Assembly: GCF_014522305.1 (NCBI RefSeq) | Contig: NZ_CP041982.1 | Span: forward strand, 563,001-627,000 | Source of the DNA: Lactobacillus sp. PV034 | GTDB lineage: Bacteria > Bacillota > Bacilli > Lactobacillales > Lactobacillaceae | Direction of reading: 5' to 3' | DNA: 64,000 nt | In this document: piece by piece, positions 19,575 through 35,029 of the stretch | How the letters are laid out: each line of letters starts with the position of its first letter | How positions within the stretch are numbered: the first letter of the stretch is position 1 | Notes under the pieces: model-generated | The model's input: the letters and a program-made list of their open reading frames with translations, nothing else | Told to the model about the DNA's origin: nothing | The model's database searches: none | Made by a program: the position numbers and the translations under genes

Positions 19575-21425
19575 TTAAGCCTTCTTTTGTGCTAAGTTAT
19601 CTTTACTATGATTTTGCTTATTATTTGCTTTTTTATGTGGACGCTGATTTTTTGAACTAGTAGTATTAGACGTTTGAGAGCGATTTGGGCGAGCATTCTT
19701 ATCTTTTATTTCTTCTTTTGCCTTGTGAAGCTCATTACGTTTTACCATCGCACGATGTCTATTTTGATTTACTTCCATTACGACTGGAAGTACAACTGGT
19801 CGACGACCGGTTTGCTTATACAAAAATTTTTCTACGCTATTTCTTACATCTTGTTTTAACTCTGTCCAATCAAAACGTTTATGTTCAAAATTATTAGCAA
19901 TTGCTTCTTTGATAGCATCTACCGCACCATTCATCAACTCGTGGTTTGTCTTGATATAAACAAATCCTCTAGTTGATACTAATGGTTCAGAAACAATCTT
20001 TTTCTTTTTGCGGTCAATTGTTACTGCAGCAATGAAGACACCATCATCTGATAAAACTTCACGATCTCTTAAAACAATGTTTCCGACATCCCCTACACCT
20101 GAGCCGTCGATCATCGTATCTTCGCCTGGAACAGGATCACTAAGGTAGAATCTACCTTTTTCTAATTTTAAGACGTCACCATTCTTAGTTAAGTACACAT
20201 CTTTAGGATCCATACCTACTTCAACGGCTAAATTCTTATGTAGTTCCAGCAAACGATATTCACCAATTGCAGGAATCAAGAATTTAGGTTTCATGGTATC
20301 AATTAAGATTTGCAAATCGCGTCCAGTAGCATGACCACTCGTATGACGTTCCCGGCCTAATTGTTTTACGGTACCACCAGCACGATAAATCATATCGCTG
20401 GTTTGAGCTACCATAGTTTCTACTGAATGAGAAGGAGTCGTTGCAATAAACACCATGTCTCCCTTTTTAATCTTAATCAAACGGTGACGATTAGTAGCCA
20501 TCTTTTGAAGTGATTTAAGTGGTTCTCCCATTCTACCAGTTTCCAGAATTACTAGTTCGTTGTCTGGGATTTTCTTTAAATCTTTACTATGAACTAATAA
20601 ATCTTTTGGAACATCAAGATAGCCCAATTTCATTGCAGTATAAACTATCTTACCAATGTCACGTCCGGTTAAATAGACATGACGTCCGGTTGCTGCTGCT
20701 GCTTGGAAAATTTCTTGAATTCTAACAATATTAGAAGCTTTAGAAGCAACAATAATTCTACCTTCATGGTTATTAAAGGTATTAAGAATATAGTTTTGAA
20801 TTGATGACTGGCGATCGTTAGGGAAGACCGCTTCTGCATTAGTAGAATCACTTAATAAAGCTAAAACGCCCTTTTGAGATATTTCGGATAATCTAACAAA
20901 GTCAGTTCGATATCCTTCTTTAGCTGATGGATCAAACTTAAAGTCACCAGTATAAACAATTTCTCCTTCTTTTGTAGAAAGATCAATTCCGAGTGAATCA
21001 GGAAGTGAATGCGTAGTCTTAAAGAAAGATACACTTGCATTCTTAAAATCAATTTCAGTATCAGCATCAATTACATGGAATAAATTGTTTTTGCGACGCT
21101 TATTTTCACGTTGAACTGCAATTTTTGCTAATTCAATTGTAAGTTTAGAACCGAATACTGGAATATCATGATTGCGCAAAATATATGGAAGTGCTCCAAT
21201 TGCATCATCATGACCATGAGTTAAAAAGATTCCTGCAATTCGATCGCCATATTCTTTGAAAAAGTCTAAATCTGGAATTACGACATCAATTCCAAGCATT
21301 GAGCTGTCTGGATATTTAAGTCCAGCATCCATAATAAAAATTTCATCGTCAACTTGAACAGCATACATGTTCTTTCCATTTTCACGCACGCCACCCAACA
21401 TCATTATCTTAATGTTTTGTGCCAT
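19575..21425 (-). CDS. rnjB: Ribonuclease J2
   Basis: A 616-residue beta-CASP metallo-beta-lactamase RNase. The start at 21423-21425 (MAQNIKIMMLGG) follows GAAAGAAG; a frame seven codons longer has no site. Seen: motif 2 is HGHDDAIGA, with Ala where active RNase J has His, and the beta-CASP domain carries HTSGHATGRD; an Asn/Lys/Ser-rich tail (about 570-616) follows. The degenerate motif matches the RNase J2 type, which forms a complex with RNase J1 (encoded at 33278 here) and has weak activity by itself. Located downstream of rpsO. Confidence 0.92.
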   Translation of the reverse strand: MAQNIKIMMLGGVRENGKNMYAVQVDDEIFIMDAGLKYPDSSMLGIDVVIPDLDFFKEYGDRIAGIFLTHGHDDAIGALPYILRNHDIPVFGSKLTIELAKIAVQRENKRRKNNLFHVIDADTEIDFKNASVSFFKTTHSLPDSLGIDLSTKEGEIVYTGDFKFDPSAKEGYRTDFVRLSEISQKGVLALLSDSTNAEAVFPNDRQSSIQNYILNTFNNHEGRIIVASKASNIVRIQEIFQAAAATGRHVYLTGRDIGKIVYTAMKLGYLDVPKDLLVHSKDLKKIPDNELVILETGRMGEPLKSLQKMATNRHRLIKIKKGDMVFIATTPSHSVETMVAQTSDMIYRAGGTVKQLGRERHTSGHATGRDLQILIDTMKPKFLIPAIGEYRLLELHKNLAVEVGMDPKDVYLTKNGDVLKLEKGRFYLSDPVPGEDTMIDGSGVGDVGNIVLRDREVLSDDGVFIAAVTIDRKKKKIVSEPLVSTRGFVYIKTNHELMNGAVDAIKEAIANNFEHKRFDWTELKQDVRNSVEKFLYKQTGRRPVVLPVVMEVNQNRHRAMVKRNELHKAKEEIKDKNARPNRSQTSNTTSSKNQRPHKKANNKQNHSKDNLAQKKA

Positions 21426-21533
21426 AATTTTCTTCTTTCTATACATTTATTCAATTTTCTTGTGGATCAATATGATCAAAACGAAATTTGTCTATTTAAT
21501 TTTAGCATATTAAGACATGATTTTAAAAGCGTA

Positions 21534-31867: not shown

Positions 31868-32011
31868 AAGAAATTCCTCCCTGAATTTCATAAAAAAACT
31901 GTGACTCCAGTCACAGCCCTTCTATGCAAAAATAAAATTGCAGTTTGTTGAAGCTTTATCATCTGTATAGTTTCAGTTGAAGATTTTAACAAAATATTGG
32001 AGCAACGTCAA
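31868..32011 (-). promoter_or_regulatory. typA promoter and leader with internal terminator and SD hairpin
   Basis: On the - strand: -35 TTGACG (32006-32011), 17-base spacer, -10 TAAAAT (31983-31988), expected start near 31976. The leader of about 108 bases then holds a stem CTGTGAC/GTCACAG (31899-31905 with 31910-31916) followed by seven T, the form of an intrinsic terminator, and directly after it a stem GAAATTC/GAATTTC (31870-31876 with 31883-31889) whose loop AGGGAG is the core of the Shine-Dalgarno. A small extra stem TGCAA/TTGCA lies before them. Only about 25 bases separate terminator and start codon, so it must act on typA transcription itself. Confidence 0.65.
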
Positions 32012-32147
32012 TAAGGTCTACGATTTAAAGGTAGATAATACTTCAATAATCATTAAAAATGTTATAAACTGTTATAAGTTTGTTAATTAAATTTCTATTT
32101 CAATATAGTTTTATATTATATATTCTTAAGTTAAGGAGAGAATTATT

Positions 32148-32702
32148 TTGATCTTAATGCATGATATTGTTCGCGATGGCGATCCCGTTTTGAGAAAGGT
32201 AGCTAAGCCACTAACTTTTCCCCTTTCCGATGAAGACAAAAAATTTGCTGAGGAAATGATGGAATACCTTGTCAACTCACAAGATCCAAAAATTGCAGAA
32301 AAGCATCAATTACGAGCTGGAGTTGGTTTAGCTGCTCCCCAAGTTGGTCGTAGTATTCAAATGGCTGCATTATTAGTTCCAAATAACGAAGGCGAAATTA
32401 TCTTTAAAGAAGTTTTTGTAAACCCTAAGATTCTTTCTGAATCTGTTAGACAAGCTTGCATTGCTGAAGGAGAAGGTTGTTTAAGTGTTGACGAAGACAT
32501 TGAAGGGTACGTACCTCGACCAGACAAATTAAAAATTCATTATTATACTGTTGACGGTGAAGAAAAAACCATTCGTCTAAAAGATTATCCTGCAATTGTG
32601 GCTTCTCATGAAATTGATCACCTTAATGGTCATTTGTTTTATGATCGTATAAATAAAGAAAATCCATTTTCAATGGACGAAGATACTATTGTAATTTCCT
32701 AA
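32148..32702 (+). CDS. def: Peptide deformylase
   Basis: A 184-residue metalloenzyme removing the formyl group from nascent N-termini. Seen: motif [11 protein letters not shown] (about 60-69), motif II EGCLS (metal Cys, about 109-113) and motif [11 protein letters not shown] (about 154-161), the type II insert between motifs I and II being present. The start is a TTG at 32148, nine bases after GGAG; an ATG three codons on is an alternative. Divergent from typA, with its own terminator. Confidence 0.96.
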
Positions 32703-32716
32703 AATTTCAATACTAT

Positions 32717-32755
32717 AAAAAGACCAGGAACACATCACGAGTTCCTGGTCTTTTT
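32717..32755 (+). terminator. Intrinsic terminator after def
   Basis: A 15-bp stem (AAAAAGACCAGGAAC and its complement) with a 9-base loop and T run on the + strand. Confidence 0.92.
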
Positions 32756-32794
32756 GTCAACATGTTTATATAAATTATTGTAAGGCTTTTTCGC

Positions 32795-32884
32795 AAAAAA
32801 AGTGCTAGCACCACGCTAGCACTCCCATGTTACTTAAGAAGAATGAAGATACTCCTAATGTAGATGATAACCACTCATCTACAT
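32795..32884 (-). ncRNA. Candidate small RNA, about 89 bases, between def and rpoY
   Basis: The - strand of the 350-base gap between def and rpoY carries a complete small transcription unit. The predicted RNA starts near 32883, opens with a stem of 10-12 bp (32856-32867 with 32875-32886, 7-base loop), continues through a single-stranded, pyrimidine-rich stretch (with UCUUCAUUCUUCUU) and ends with a 9-bp GC-containing stem AGTGCTAGC/GCTAGCACT (32801-32809 with 32815-32823) followed by six or more U. No reading frame with a ribosome-binding site fits inside. The remaining gap contains the def terminator and the rpoY promoter. I do not recognise the RNA as any known class. Confidence 0.65.
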
Positions 32885-32889
32885 TAATA

Positions 32890-32918
32890 ATAATACTTAT
32901 AATTTTATAATTTGTCAA
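32890..32918 (-). promoter_or_regulatory. Promoter of the candidate small RNA
   Basis: Perfect -35 TTGACA (32913-32918), 17-base spacer, -10 TATTAT (32890-32895) on the - strand. It is the closest match to the sigma-A consensus that I found in the window. Confidence 0.7.
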
Positions 32919-32971
32919 TTATATATTAATAGATATTACAAATTCATCTTATATACTTACATTATAATTTA

Positions 32972-33018
32972 TGGTAAAATTTTAATAGCTATTGAGTCAA
33001 ATATTTAGTTTTGACTCA
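32972..33018 (+). promoter_or_regulatory. rpoY-rnjA promoter and 5' stem-loop
   Basis: Extended -10 TGGTAAAAT (hexamer 32975-32980) on the + strand without a good -35; expected start near 32987. Six bases later the transcript forms a 9-bp stem TGAGTCAAA/TTTGACTCA (32993-33001 with 33010-33018, 8-base loop). No T run follows, so this is not a terminator. A 5'-end stem-loop can block 5' exonucleases such as RNase J itself, or the palindrome may be an operator. Confidence 0.45.
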
Positions 33019-33053
33019 CATTTGAACGTTTTATATATAAGGAGATTTAACAA

Positions 33054-33278
33054 ATGATCTATAAAGTTTTATACCAAAAAGACCAGATCGTTAATCCAAG
33101 AAGAGAAACAACTCAAACTCTTTATCTTGAAGCAGATAATTTAGTTGAAGCAAGAAAATTGGTTGAGGATAACACCCCCTATAATATTGAACTCATCCAA
33201 GAACTAACTGGTAATTCCCTTGCTTATGAAAAGCAAAATCCAGAATTTAAGCTTACAACTATTGAATCTAAGGATTAA
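33054..33278 (+). CDS. rpoY: RNA polymerase epsilon subunit RpoY
   Basis: A 74-residue small subunit of Firmicutes RNA polymerase (formerly DUF1447/YkzG). Seen: [20 protein letters not shown] and [13 protein letters not shown], the family core, and [30 protein letters not shown] precedes the ATG. Its stop overlaps the rnjA start by one base, the arrangement conserved in Bacillus, tying polymerase and RNase J1 expression. Confidence 0.95.
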
Positions 33279-35029
33279 TGGCTGTCAAATTAAAAAATAA
33301 TGAAGTCGGCGTTTACGCTATTGGGGGTTTAGGCGAAATCGGCCGTAACATGTACTGCGTTGAATTCCAAGATGAAATCATCATCATGGATTGCGGTATC
33401 AAATTCCCTGAAGATGATGAAATGGGAATTAACTATGTAATCTCTGACTACTCTTACTTAGTTAAGAATCGTCATAAAATTAAAGCTTTAGTTATTAGTC
33501 ACGGACATGAAGACCACATCGGGGGAATTCCATTCTTATTAAAGAAAATCCCTGAAATTCCGGTCTATGCCCCACCTTTTGCTTTGGCATTAATTAGAGG
33601 CAAACTTGAAGAACATGGTCTTTTAAAAACTACTGAACTCCATGAAGAACTCGAAGATACAGTATTAAAGTTTCCTAAACTTTCTGTTTCCTTCTTTAGA
33701 ACTACTCACTCAATTCCCGATACACTTGGAATTACTGTTCATACTCCAGAAGGAGCCGTAGTTTTTACTGGAGATTGGAAATTTGATCTTACACCAGTTA
33801 TGAATCAACCAGCACCAAACTTCCAAAAAATGGCTAAAATTGGTGAGGAAGGTGTACTTGCCCTACTTTCTGATTCTACAAATGCAGAAGTTCCTACCTT
33901 TACAAAGTCAGAAAGATTTGTTGCACAATCACTCCATAACATTATTACTGGTATTGATGGCCGGATAATTTTTGCTACTTTTGCTTCTAACCTTTATCGT
34001 GTATCAACTGCTATTCAAGCTGCAATTGATACTGGTAGAAAGGTAGCCATCTTTGGCCGCTCAATGGAAAACGGAGTTCAAAACGGTATTGATTTAGGCT
34101 ACTTAACTATTCCAGACGGTACAATTGTAGATGCCAGTGAAATAAATAAACTTCCTCCTGAAAAGGTAATGATTTTATGTACTGGGTCACAAGGAGAGCC
34201 ACTAGCTGCTCTTTCAAGAATTGCTAACGGTACACACCGTCAGATTTCTTTACAACCAAATGATACAGTGATTTTTTCATCTAACCCTATCCCAGGAAAT
34301 ACTACCAGTGTTAACCATTTAATTAATAAGTTAACTGAAGCTGGTGCAAAGGTGGTTCATGGAAAGATTCATAATGTGCATACTTCTGGACATGCCGGAC
34401 AAGAAGAACAAAAAATGTTAGTTGAATTAATGAAACCTAAGTTCTTCGTCCCTGTTCACGGTGAATATCGGATGCAAGTAGTTCATACCCAAACTGCCCA
34501 AGAAACAGGTATGCCAGCTGATCATACTTTTGTATTAAAGAACGGAGATGTTTTAGCCTTAACCAGAGACTCTTCAAGATTAGCAGGTCATATCAACATT
34601 CCAGATGTTTACGTCGATACTTCTGGATCTGATGATGTTGGTAATGTTGTTGTCCGAGATCGTCAAATCTTAGCTGAAGAAGGTCTCGTAGTTGTGGTAG
34701 CAACGGTAGACTATGAACACCAACGTGTTTTAGCTGGTCCAGATATTCTCAGCCGTGGTTTTGTCTATATGCGTGAATCTACAGATTTAATTAGTGCTGC
34801 CCAAAAGCATGTTTACCATATCTTAAGAGGAGAAATGGCAAAGAAATCCAAACCAGATGAACGTGAATTAAAGAAGACGATTATTGAGAATTTACAAGAT
34901 TTTCTCTATTCTCGCACTGAACGACGTCCAATGATTTTACCAATGATTATTGATAAAAATAGAAACGAAAAAACTTACAAAAAAGGTAAGAAAAAAGAAC
35001 AAGACCAAAATCCAATAAAAAACGATTAA
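33278..35029 (+). CDS. rnjA: Ribonuclease J1
   Basis: A 583-residue beta-CASP RNase with 5'-3' exonuclease and endonuclease activity, central to mRNA decay and rRNA maturation. Seen: complete metal motif HGHEDHIGG (about 74-82), GDWKFD, the beta-CASP region with HTSGHAGQEE, PVHGEYRMQ, and a C-terminal domain with a Lys-rich end. Compared with rnjB in this window it keeps the full HxHxDH motif, so it should be the main catalytic subunit of the J1/J2 complex. Confidence 0.96.
   Translation: MAVKLKNNEVGVYAIGGLGEIGRNMYCVEFQDEIIIMDCGIKFPEDDEMGINYVISDYSYLVKNRHKIKALVISHGHEDHIGGIPFLLKKIPEIPVYAPPFALALIRGKLEEHGLLKTTELHEELEDTVLKFPKLSVSFFRTTHSIPDTLGITVHTPEGAVVFTGDWKFDLTPVMNQPAPNFQKMAKIGEEGVLALLSDSTNAEVPTFTKSERFVAQSLHNIITGIDGRIIFATFASNLYRVSTAIQAAIDTGRKVAIFGRSMENGVQNGIDLGYLTIPDGTIVDASEINKLPPEKVMILCTGSQGEPLAALSRIANGTHRQISLQPNDTVIFSSNPIPGNTTSVNHLINKLTEAGAKVVHGKIHNVHTSGHAGQEEQKMLVELMKPKFFVPVHGEYRMQVVHTQTAQETGMPADHTFVLKNGDVLALTRDSSRLAGHINIPDVYVDTSGSDDVGNVVVRDRQILAEEGLVVVVATVDYEHQRVLAGPDILSRGFVYMRESTDLISAAQKHVYHILRGEMAKKSKPDERELKKTIIENLQDFLYSRTERRPMILPMIIDKNRNEKTYKKGKKKEQDQNPIKND

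Follow-up and report, generated by a model that had tools for sequence, protein, structure and literature searches.

Among the small RNAs of the Firmicutes, RoxS/RsaE and other RNAs carrying a C-rich motif are short molecules that run from promoter to terminator and possess pyrimidine-rich seeds. The CiaR-dependent csRNAs of Streptococcus are, according to the work describing them, intergenic RNAs of 51–202 nt with a promoter and a terminator of their own, encoded by 2–6 genes per genome, associated with the CiaR repeat TTTAAG-N5-TTTAAG and endowed with anti-Shine-Dalgarno and, mostly, anti-start-codon motifs; two stem-loops are present in 32 of the 61 predicted csRNAs and in the pneumococcal ones an unpaired stretch lies between them (PMC3091779). 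As to the lactobacilli, a transcriptome study of the Lactobacillus acidophilus complex goes no further than to allow that transcribed short frames might be noncoding RNAs (PMC6099100). Our literature search found no small RNA named at the def–rpoY locus and little on Lactobacillus small RNAs in general; since subscription journals lay mostly outside its reach, an earlier mention is possible.

The element presented here was found in a window of 64,000 nucleotides of Lactobacillus sp. PV034 (contig NZ_CP041982.1, positions 563,001–627,000), to which all coordinates refer. On the minus strand of the gap between def and rpoY, a promoter, a 5′ stem-loop and a terminator stem followed by a run of seven T occur within ~90 nt; the positions of promoter and terminator, together with covariance-model matches, delimit a predicted small RNA of about 90 nt (32795..32885, minus strand). 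The neighboring genes are presumably def (peptide deformylase, 32148..32702, plus strand, from the list of reading frames), rpoY (RNA polymerase epsilon subunit, 33054..33278, plus strand, from the same list and from synteny) and, directly after the latter, rnjA (RNase J1, 33278–35029, plus strand), the first two having been so named also in a preliminary description of this DNA. The small RNA is thus convergent with def and divergent from rpoY. Its gene lies in the space delimited by the def stop (32702) on one side and the rpoY start (33054) on the other, overlaps neither neighbor and, as had been proposed, is antisense to no gene. It is with high confidence that we regard this element as a real small RNA gene, whose transcription is predicted from sequence. 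Two further features of the surroundings may be mentioned. On the 3′ side of def (window 32720–32752) there is a stem of 12 bp that is accompanied by T runs on either strand and can presumably terminate def as well as, from the opposite side, read-through of the small RNA. Furthermore, what we take to be both RNase J paralogues are encoded inside the window, ~12 kb apart and on opposite strands (19575–21446, minus; 33278–35029, plus).

The preliminary description knew of no RNA of this form, a statement with which both the literature search and Rfam agree. No match at gathering score was obtained with Rfam 15 over the whole window, and permissive scans of 32700–33060 and of eight relatives yielded sub-threshold matches alone (PrrF, FopS, RsaJ, miRNA families, STnc370, and the Phe and Thr leaders), all of which are taken as chance. 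The best permissive score on 32700–33060 was that of PrrF (RF00444; 24.7 bits, E 0.035), whose well-aligned part falls in the terminator; since this score is far under the gathering score of 90 and no PrrF match at E ≤ 1 was found in the eight relatives scanned, this likeness too is ascribed to chance. As for the known small RNAs of the Firmicutes, the permissive scan of 32700–33060 returned just a fragment of RsaJ, located over the def terminator on the other strand and scoring 9.7 bits.

When compared with the systems mentioned above, the RNA resembles RoxS/RsaE in being small, promoter-to-terminator, pyrimidine-rich and from the same phylum, but differs in that its core contains two UCUUC motifs instead of a C-rich one and in that the window has no Rfam match at gathering score. 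With the csRNAs (PMC3091779) it shares the succession of 5′ stem-loop, conserved stretch and terminator; unlike the csRNAs, with their 2–6 genes, it is present as one strong copy per Lactobacillus carrier genome. Moreover, in the larger (16 members) of the two groups into which its 21 members fall, the middle of the molecule folds into a hairpin of its own; CAU is contained in the cores of the window's group (five members) only, and no general affinity of the core for the start regions of the window was observed. The CiaR repeat TTTAAG-N5-TTTAAG is not found within two mismatches near the window promoter (32918); within three mismatches it occurs, perhaps by chance, upstream of the core in 4 of the 21 members.

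Transcription would start from a near-consensus σA promoter, consisting, as originally proposed, of the −35 hexamer TTGACA (32913..32918, minus strand), a 17-base spacer and the −10 hexamer TATTAT (32890..32895, minus strand). It matches the consensus at 11 of 12 positions and ranks first of the 13 sites listed in 32000–33300. TTGAC is present in all 21 members (full TTGACA in 11) and the −10 element matches at least four of the six consensus positions in all of them (best of spacings 16–18), the spacer being 17 bases long in 19 members and 18 in two. The promoter is therefore the RNA's own, as befits a stand-alone intergenic small RNA; the start of the RNA is predicted to lie 5–8 bases past the −10 hexamer. 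Thirteen of the 16 larger-group promoters, those of L038, L039 and L046 for example, have TAAAATAAC in the spacer, one base on from TTGAC; conservation of this kind exceeds what sigma factor contacts need and a regulator site may possibly be located there.

The RNA would begin with P1, a perfect stem of 12 bp (32886–32875 with 32867–32856, minus strand) closed by a 7-nt loop (GTGGTTA), and end with P3, a 9-bp terminator stem (32823–32815 with 32809–32801, minus strand) having a loop of five (GTGGT) and followed by seven T (32795..32801, minus strand), the first of which closes the stem. Both the perfect stem of 10–12 bp expected at the predicted start and the 9-bp terminator stem with its U run were thus found, the latter being borne out by sequence, fold and conservation. 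The 93-nt strand folds with −32.9 kcal/mol compared to −18.2 ± 2.8 for its shuffled versions (z = −5.28), none of 200 being as good. Every one of the 21 members ends with a run of at least five T; a simple terminator scan of 32000–33300 lists nothing, neither the terminator of the small RNA nor that of def, so that the assignment of an intrinsic terminator belonging to the RNA itself depends on the fold and on conservation, namely the ends of the members and the covariation of the stem. When 13 of the 21 members were folded singly, the minimum-energy structure contained P1 as drawn in 12 (all except L037), the middle hairpin P2 in 12 (all except L017) and P3 in 12 (all except L051). For the larger group the predicted RNA measures about 110 nt. 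In one member (L041:956–1090, minus strand, genome G027) the 5′ arm of P1 is part of a 25-nt tandem duplication (AAATATGTAGTGAATGATTTATAAA twice), which brings the RNA to ~135 nt. In 12 of the 15 members of alignment A2 (see below) the terminator loop, 9 nt long, carries AGTC despite the turnover of the stem, a feature that the window's group lacks.

The two outer stems are preserved by covariation. In alignment A3 (20 members), which was fitted to the structure model, 97.8% of the cells are paired and 12 of 25 pairs are changed on both sides (55 cells); none of 500 shuffles reaches any of the five measures of covariation and structures slid along the alignment pair in 35–53%. In the MAFFT alignment A2 (15 members) 95.7% are paired and eight pairs (18 cells) have both-side changes, with 0/500 shuffles reaching four of the measures and 95/500 the fifth, further pair types. 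A third alignment, A1, like A3, comprises 20 of the 21 members, as compared to 15 in A2, L041 with its duplication being excluded from all three. Taken separately in A3, P1 has 97.8% of its cells paired and four of nine pairs changed on both sides, P3 98.3% and eight of nine. In L004 and L005, for instance, P1 is written in other letters with its pairing intact, the middle of the molecule being letter-identical to the window. The conserved secondary structure is therefore attested by the covariation of P1 and P3; P2 hardly varies. A lack of conservation of promoter and stems in relatives had been named as what would speak against the candidate; upon inspection of the relatives, promoter and both stems turned out to be all kept.

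Between the two stems lies a near-invariant core of 23 nt (32834..32856, minus strand), which reads AGAAGT[A/C]TCTTCA[A/T]TCTTCTTAA in the family and begins with AGGAG in the window. Identical letters in 20/20 rows are found in 18 of its 23 columns, which span both arms of P2 and most of its loop, and the core retains ~90% mean identity between the window's group and the larger one, compared with ungapped flank identities of 35% over the 60 nt that precede the promoter and 32% over the 40 nt past the terminator. Conservation extends past P2, where most larger-group members have UUCCCA and most of those in the window's group GUAACAUGGGA. Within the core, P2 is formed in the window by AGGAG (32856–32852) and CTTCT (32841–32837), on the minus strand, around a 10-nt loop; with −2.1 kcal/mol and one G-U pair its stability there is marginal, that in the relatives being greater (−2.6 to −5.4). 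By group, the energy lies between −2.1 and −2.7 kcal/mol for the window's group and between −3.8 and −5.4 for the larger one, where P2 is a hairpin of 6–7 bp; if AGAAG pairs with the first UCUUC instead, −1.0 to −1.5 kcal/mol are obtained. Not a single double (compensatory) change affects P2 in the 20 members of A3, so that covariation does not prove its pairing, the support for which comes from its energy and its invariance. Accordingly, the pyrimidine-rich open stretch of the preliminary description is a fitting picture of the window's RNA, whose centroid fold leaves the middle open and whose minimum-energy fold has there a weak third hairpin other than P2, but not of the relatives, in which that stretch is folded into P2.

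The distribution of the small RNA was studied at loci anchored on rnjA, present in 74 of 75 Lactobacillus genomes, by reading the def–rpoY gap. Seventy-three loci could be read; in 71 of them def and rpoY lie on a single piece, with 20 carriers and 51 non-carriers. In a further carrier, G067, the locus is divided between two contigs. The RNA is therefore found in 21 of the 75 genomes, about a quarter, always at def–rpoY and in one orientation, and the gap measures 329–410 nt in carriers vs 117–223 nt in non-carriers. In L021, L022 and L024–L030, counted as non-carriers, a loose pattern match corresponds to the rpoY ribosome-binding site only. A DNA search of the 75 genomes gave matches in nine, consisting of the window's own, L002–L005 at def–rpoY and four short ones elsewhere. 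The covariance model built on 15 members recovers exactly the 21 carriers at E ≤ 1.1e-4, with one strong match each. At E ≤ 1 the model matches 28 of the 75 genomes, and besides the members there are 12 weak matches (E 0.0026 to 0.81), all of which were read as alignments and set aside, most of them being devoid of the core. The L114 match, in the non-carrier G059, contains 21 nt identical to the core (L114:1527–1549) within, and in the same sense as, the reading frame of a presumed Ser/Thr-kinase gene with PASTA-like repeats and is taken as chance; L113 and L115 display partial core likeness inside long frames of the opposite strand.

Outside the genus, the model matches at E ≤ 0.1 in 22 of 397 family genomes, 10 of which are Lactobacillus and 12 others, with 13 places in the latter; six of these were read as alignments, and no match was convincing in the other genera sampled. 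The core is missing from the best one (L119, with E 1.6e-4 for its genome), and L121, whose core likeness is partial, overlaps the last part of a reading frame together with the sequence beyond. No match outside the genus was obtained at E ≤ 0.001 among 295 order genomes, the four matched ones being Lactobacillus; in both the family and the order searches stricter filters were applied, with which weak matches are lost. The core pattern with up to three mismatches occurs in 66 of the 397 family genomes, each listed hit outside the genus having two or three; a recurring site with 2–3 mismatches in the non-carriers G021, G023, G024, G034 and G059, and one with two mismatches in G083, were rejected as lying inside long opposite-strand frames. 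An exact-pattern search of 84,980 species genomes returned 14 stretches, all in records titled Lactobacillus (kefiranofaciens, gallinarum, hominis, hamsteri, ultunensis, rodentium, kitasatonis, kalixensis, xujianguonis and agrestimuris, among others). Viral contigs contained no exact core, and plasmids and phages gave no blastn match at E 0.01 with one larger-group member (L089) as query; a mobile origin is unsupported by these searches. Some weak matches share other traits with the RNA. In L231:1007–1099 (minus strand, G003) and L120:1501–1600 (minus strand, another genus) AAUUCCCAAU is found shortly before a terminator-like stem, as it is in most of the larger group, and may represent either a tail motif common to other RNAs or chance. 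P1-like hairpins (AGTAAATGA...TCATTTACTCG and similar) occur, with weak scores and without the core, near 1501–1606 of L131, L123 and L116, in other genomes and genera.

In a def + rpoY tree of 72 rows, from which G038 was dropped because of a contig end, the carriers occupy three places with SH-aLRT of 94 (the five with the window), 88 (nine) and 90 (seven of nine rows). The carrier state requires at least five changes (two counting starred branches alone) vs 18.2 for shuffled labels, counts that, being unrooted, do not distinguish gain from loss. The single fixed site suggests an old gain followed by losses. The small RNA most likely represents a new Lactobacillus-specific chromosomal family kept at one site.

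As to its function, the proposal that the pyrimidine-rich stretch pairs with purine-rich ribosome-binding sites received no specific support. The core binds 63 start regions of the window (frames of at least 80 codons with script-chosen start codons, a choice that leaves out rpoY with its 74) with a mean of −9.81 kcal/mol, exactly that of shuffled cores, 94 of 200 of which are as low, a result that lends no specific backing to a general anti-Shine-Dalgarno role. The top candidate of the 63, the junction between the end of rnjB (RNase J2) and the start of the next gene (−17.3 kcal/mol), is equaled by shuffles in 135 of 300 cases and, in a comparison of 20 of the 21 carriers with eight non-carriers, its energy is attained in two of the 20 carriers, the window included, so that it is unconserved. 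The ratio of antisense-core sites to a reversed-pattern control is 1.75 for the larger group, while the window's group and 24 non-carriers give 1.29 and 1.23, respectively; since a ratio of 1.69 (81 vs 48) is reached in G035, a non-carrier that groups with carriers, composition suffices for this excess, which was rejected as a target signal. No conserved target site was found among the 63 start regions and the starts of def, rpoY and rnjA.

Notwithstanding this outcome, we consider it somewhat probable that the small RNA acts mainly by pairing in trans, a best guess that follows from architecture and not from target evidence. A stand-alone noncoding RNA whose σA promoter, on the minus strand, and intrinsic terminator are both its own would be composed of three hairpins, P1, P2 and the terminator P3. 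P1, at the extreme 5′ end and kept as structure only, would probably protect that end, possibly against RNase J1 as the preliminary description suggested; P2 would present the near-invariant U[A/C]UCUUCA[A/U]UCUUCUUAA in its loop and 3′ arm, and these could pair antisense with purine-rich mRNA sites in trans, with the consequence that translation would be repressed or mRNA stability changed.

That no mRNA target turned up in the tests run would also be understandable if the RNA bound a protein or the ribosome via the invariant P2, acting as a sponge or decoy instead of pairing with mRNA, and a protein site would likewise leave 18 of 23 core columns fixed in 20/20 rows. We know of no binding motif recognizable in P2, the conserved stretch passes this hairpin and differs between the groups, and the marginal stability of P2 in the window's group would be odd for a protein-bound hairpin; this explanation is therefore judged unlikely.

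The fixed synteny (21/21) could also signify that the RNA acts on its own neighborhood, either by pairing with the Shine-Dalgarno region of the rpoY–rnjA operon, which also encodes an RNA-decay enzyme, or through transcription towards def. Indeed, several carriers have UUAAGGAGA around the Shine-Dalgarno site of rpoY, a sequence to which the 3′ part of the core is able to pair, and the rpoY start region of 20 of the 21 carriers binds the core with a mean of −11.28 vs −7.69 kcal/mol for permuted cores, only 2 of 200 being as low. Suggestive as this is, genomes that lack the RNA show just as much complementarity at rpoY: with two forms of the core, 52 non-carriers yield −10.30/−9.78 vs −10.14/−10.21 for the 21 carriers (P = 1.0 and 0.18), which gives no sign of co-evolution, and rpoY was rejected as a target. 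The other two of the three genes tested gave no clear signal, 17/200 permuted cores being as low for rnjA (15 carriers) and 133/200 for def (20 carriers). An action on the neighborhood thus appears decidedly improbable. We would lend still less credence to a broader scheme in which the RNA is a genus-restricted global regulator whose invariant hairpin shifts folds, AGAAG pairing with either UCUUC and thereby exposing one of them as seed, perhaps with a 14-codon peptide gene in the window's group and perhaps with feedback on rpoY–rnjA.

The statement that the RNA contains no credible reading frame holds in general, inasmuch as no frame with start and stop is conserved across both groups, but must be qualified for the window's group, where a 14-codon frame starting with GTG in the P1 loop is open, and of equal length, in 5/5 members although the sequence of P1 differs (VVIIYIRSIFILLK / VIKLFTRSIFILLK). 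A dual-function or small-peptide gene encoding a hydrophobic peptide of 14 residues might be surmised from this, and in most larger-group members the core reads RSLFNLL in the peptide frame. However, no Shine-Dalgarno site precedes the GTG; the matching frame of the larger group has an upstream start, comes to a stop before the RNA ends in 5 of 16 members and is shifted by indels in others; and, in the sole frame common to both groups, six of the core's seven wobble positions are invariant in 20/20 rows (the seventh differing in the window alone), which points to selection on the RNA. The chance that a peptide is the product seems slender. Finally, that a chance pair of hairpins stands untranscribed beside a chance promoter is hardly credible at all, for, although a promoter scan of this 1.3 kb lists about twice as many sites as shuffles do (13 vs 6.7), conservation, covariation and synteny speak against it.

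If feedback on rpoY–rnjA were to prove true, it would link the small RNA with the enzyme of its own decay. The RNA is common to named species such as L. kefiranofaciens, L. gallinarum, L. hominis and L. ultunensis, and the clear gene, the covariance model and the natural absences in close relatives make its function testable by deletion and complementation.
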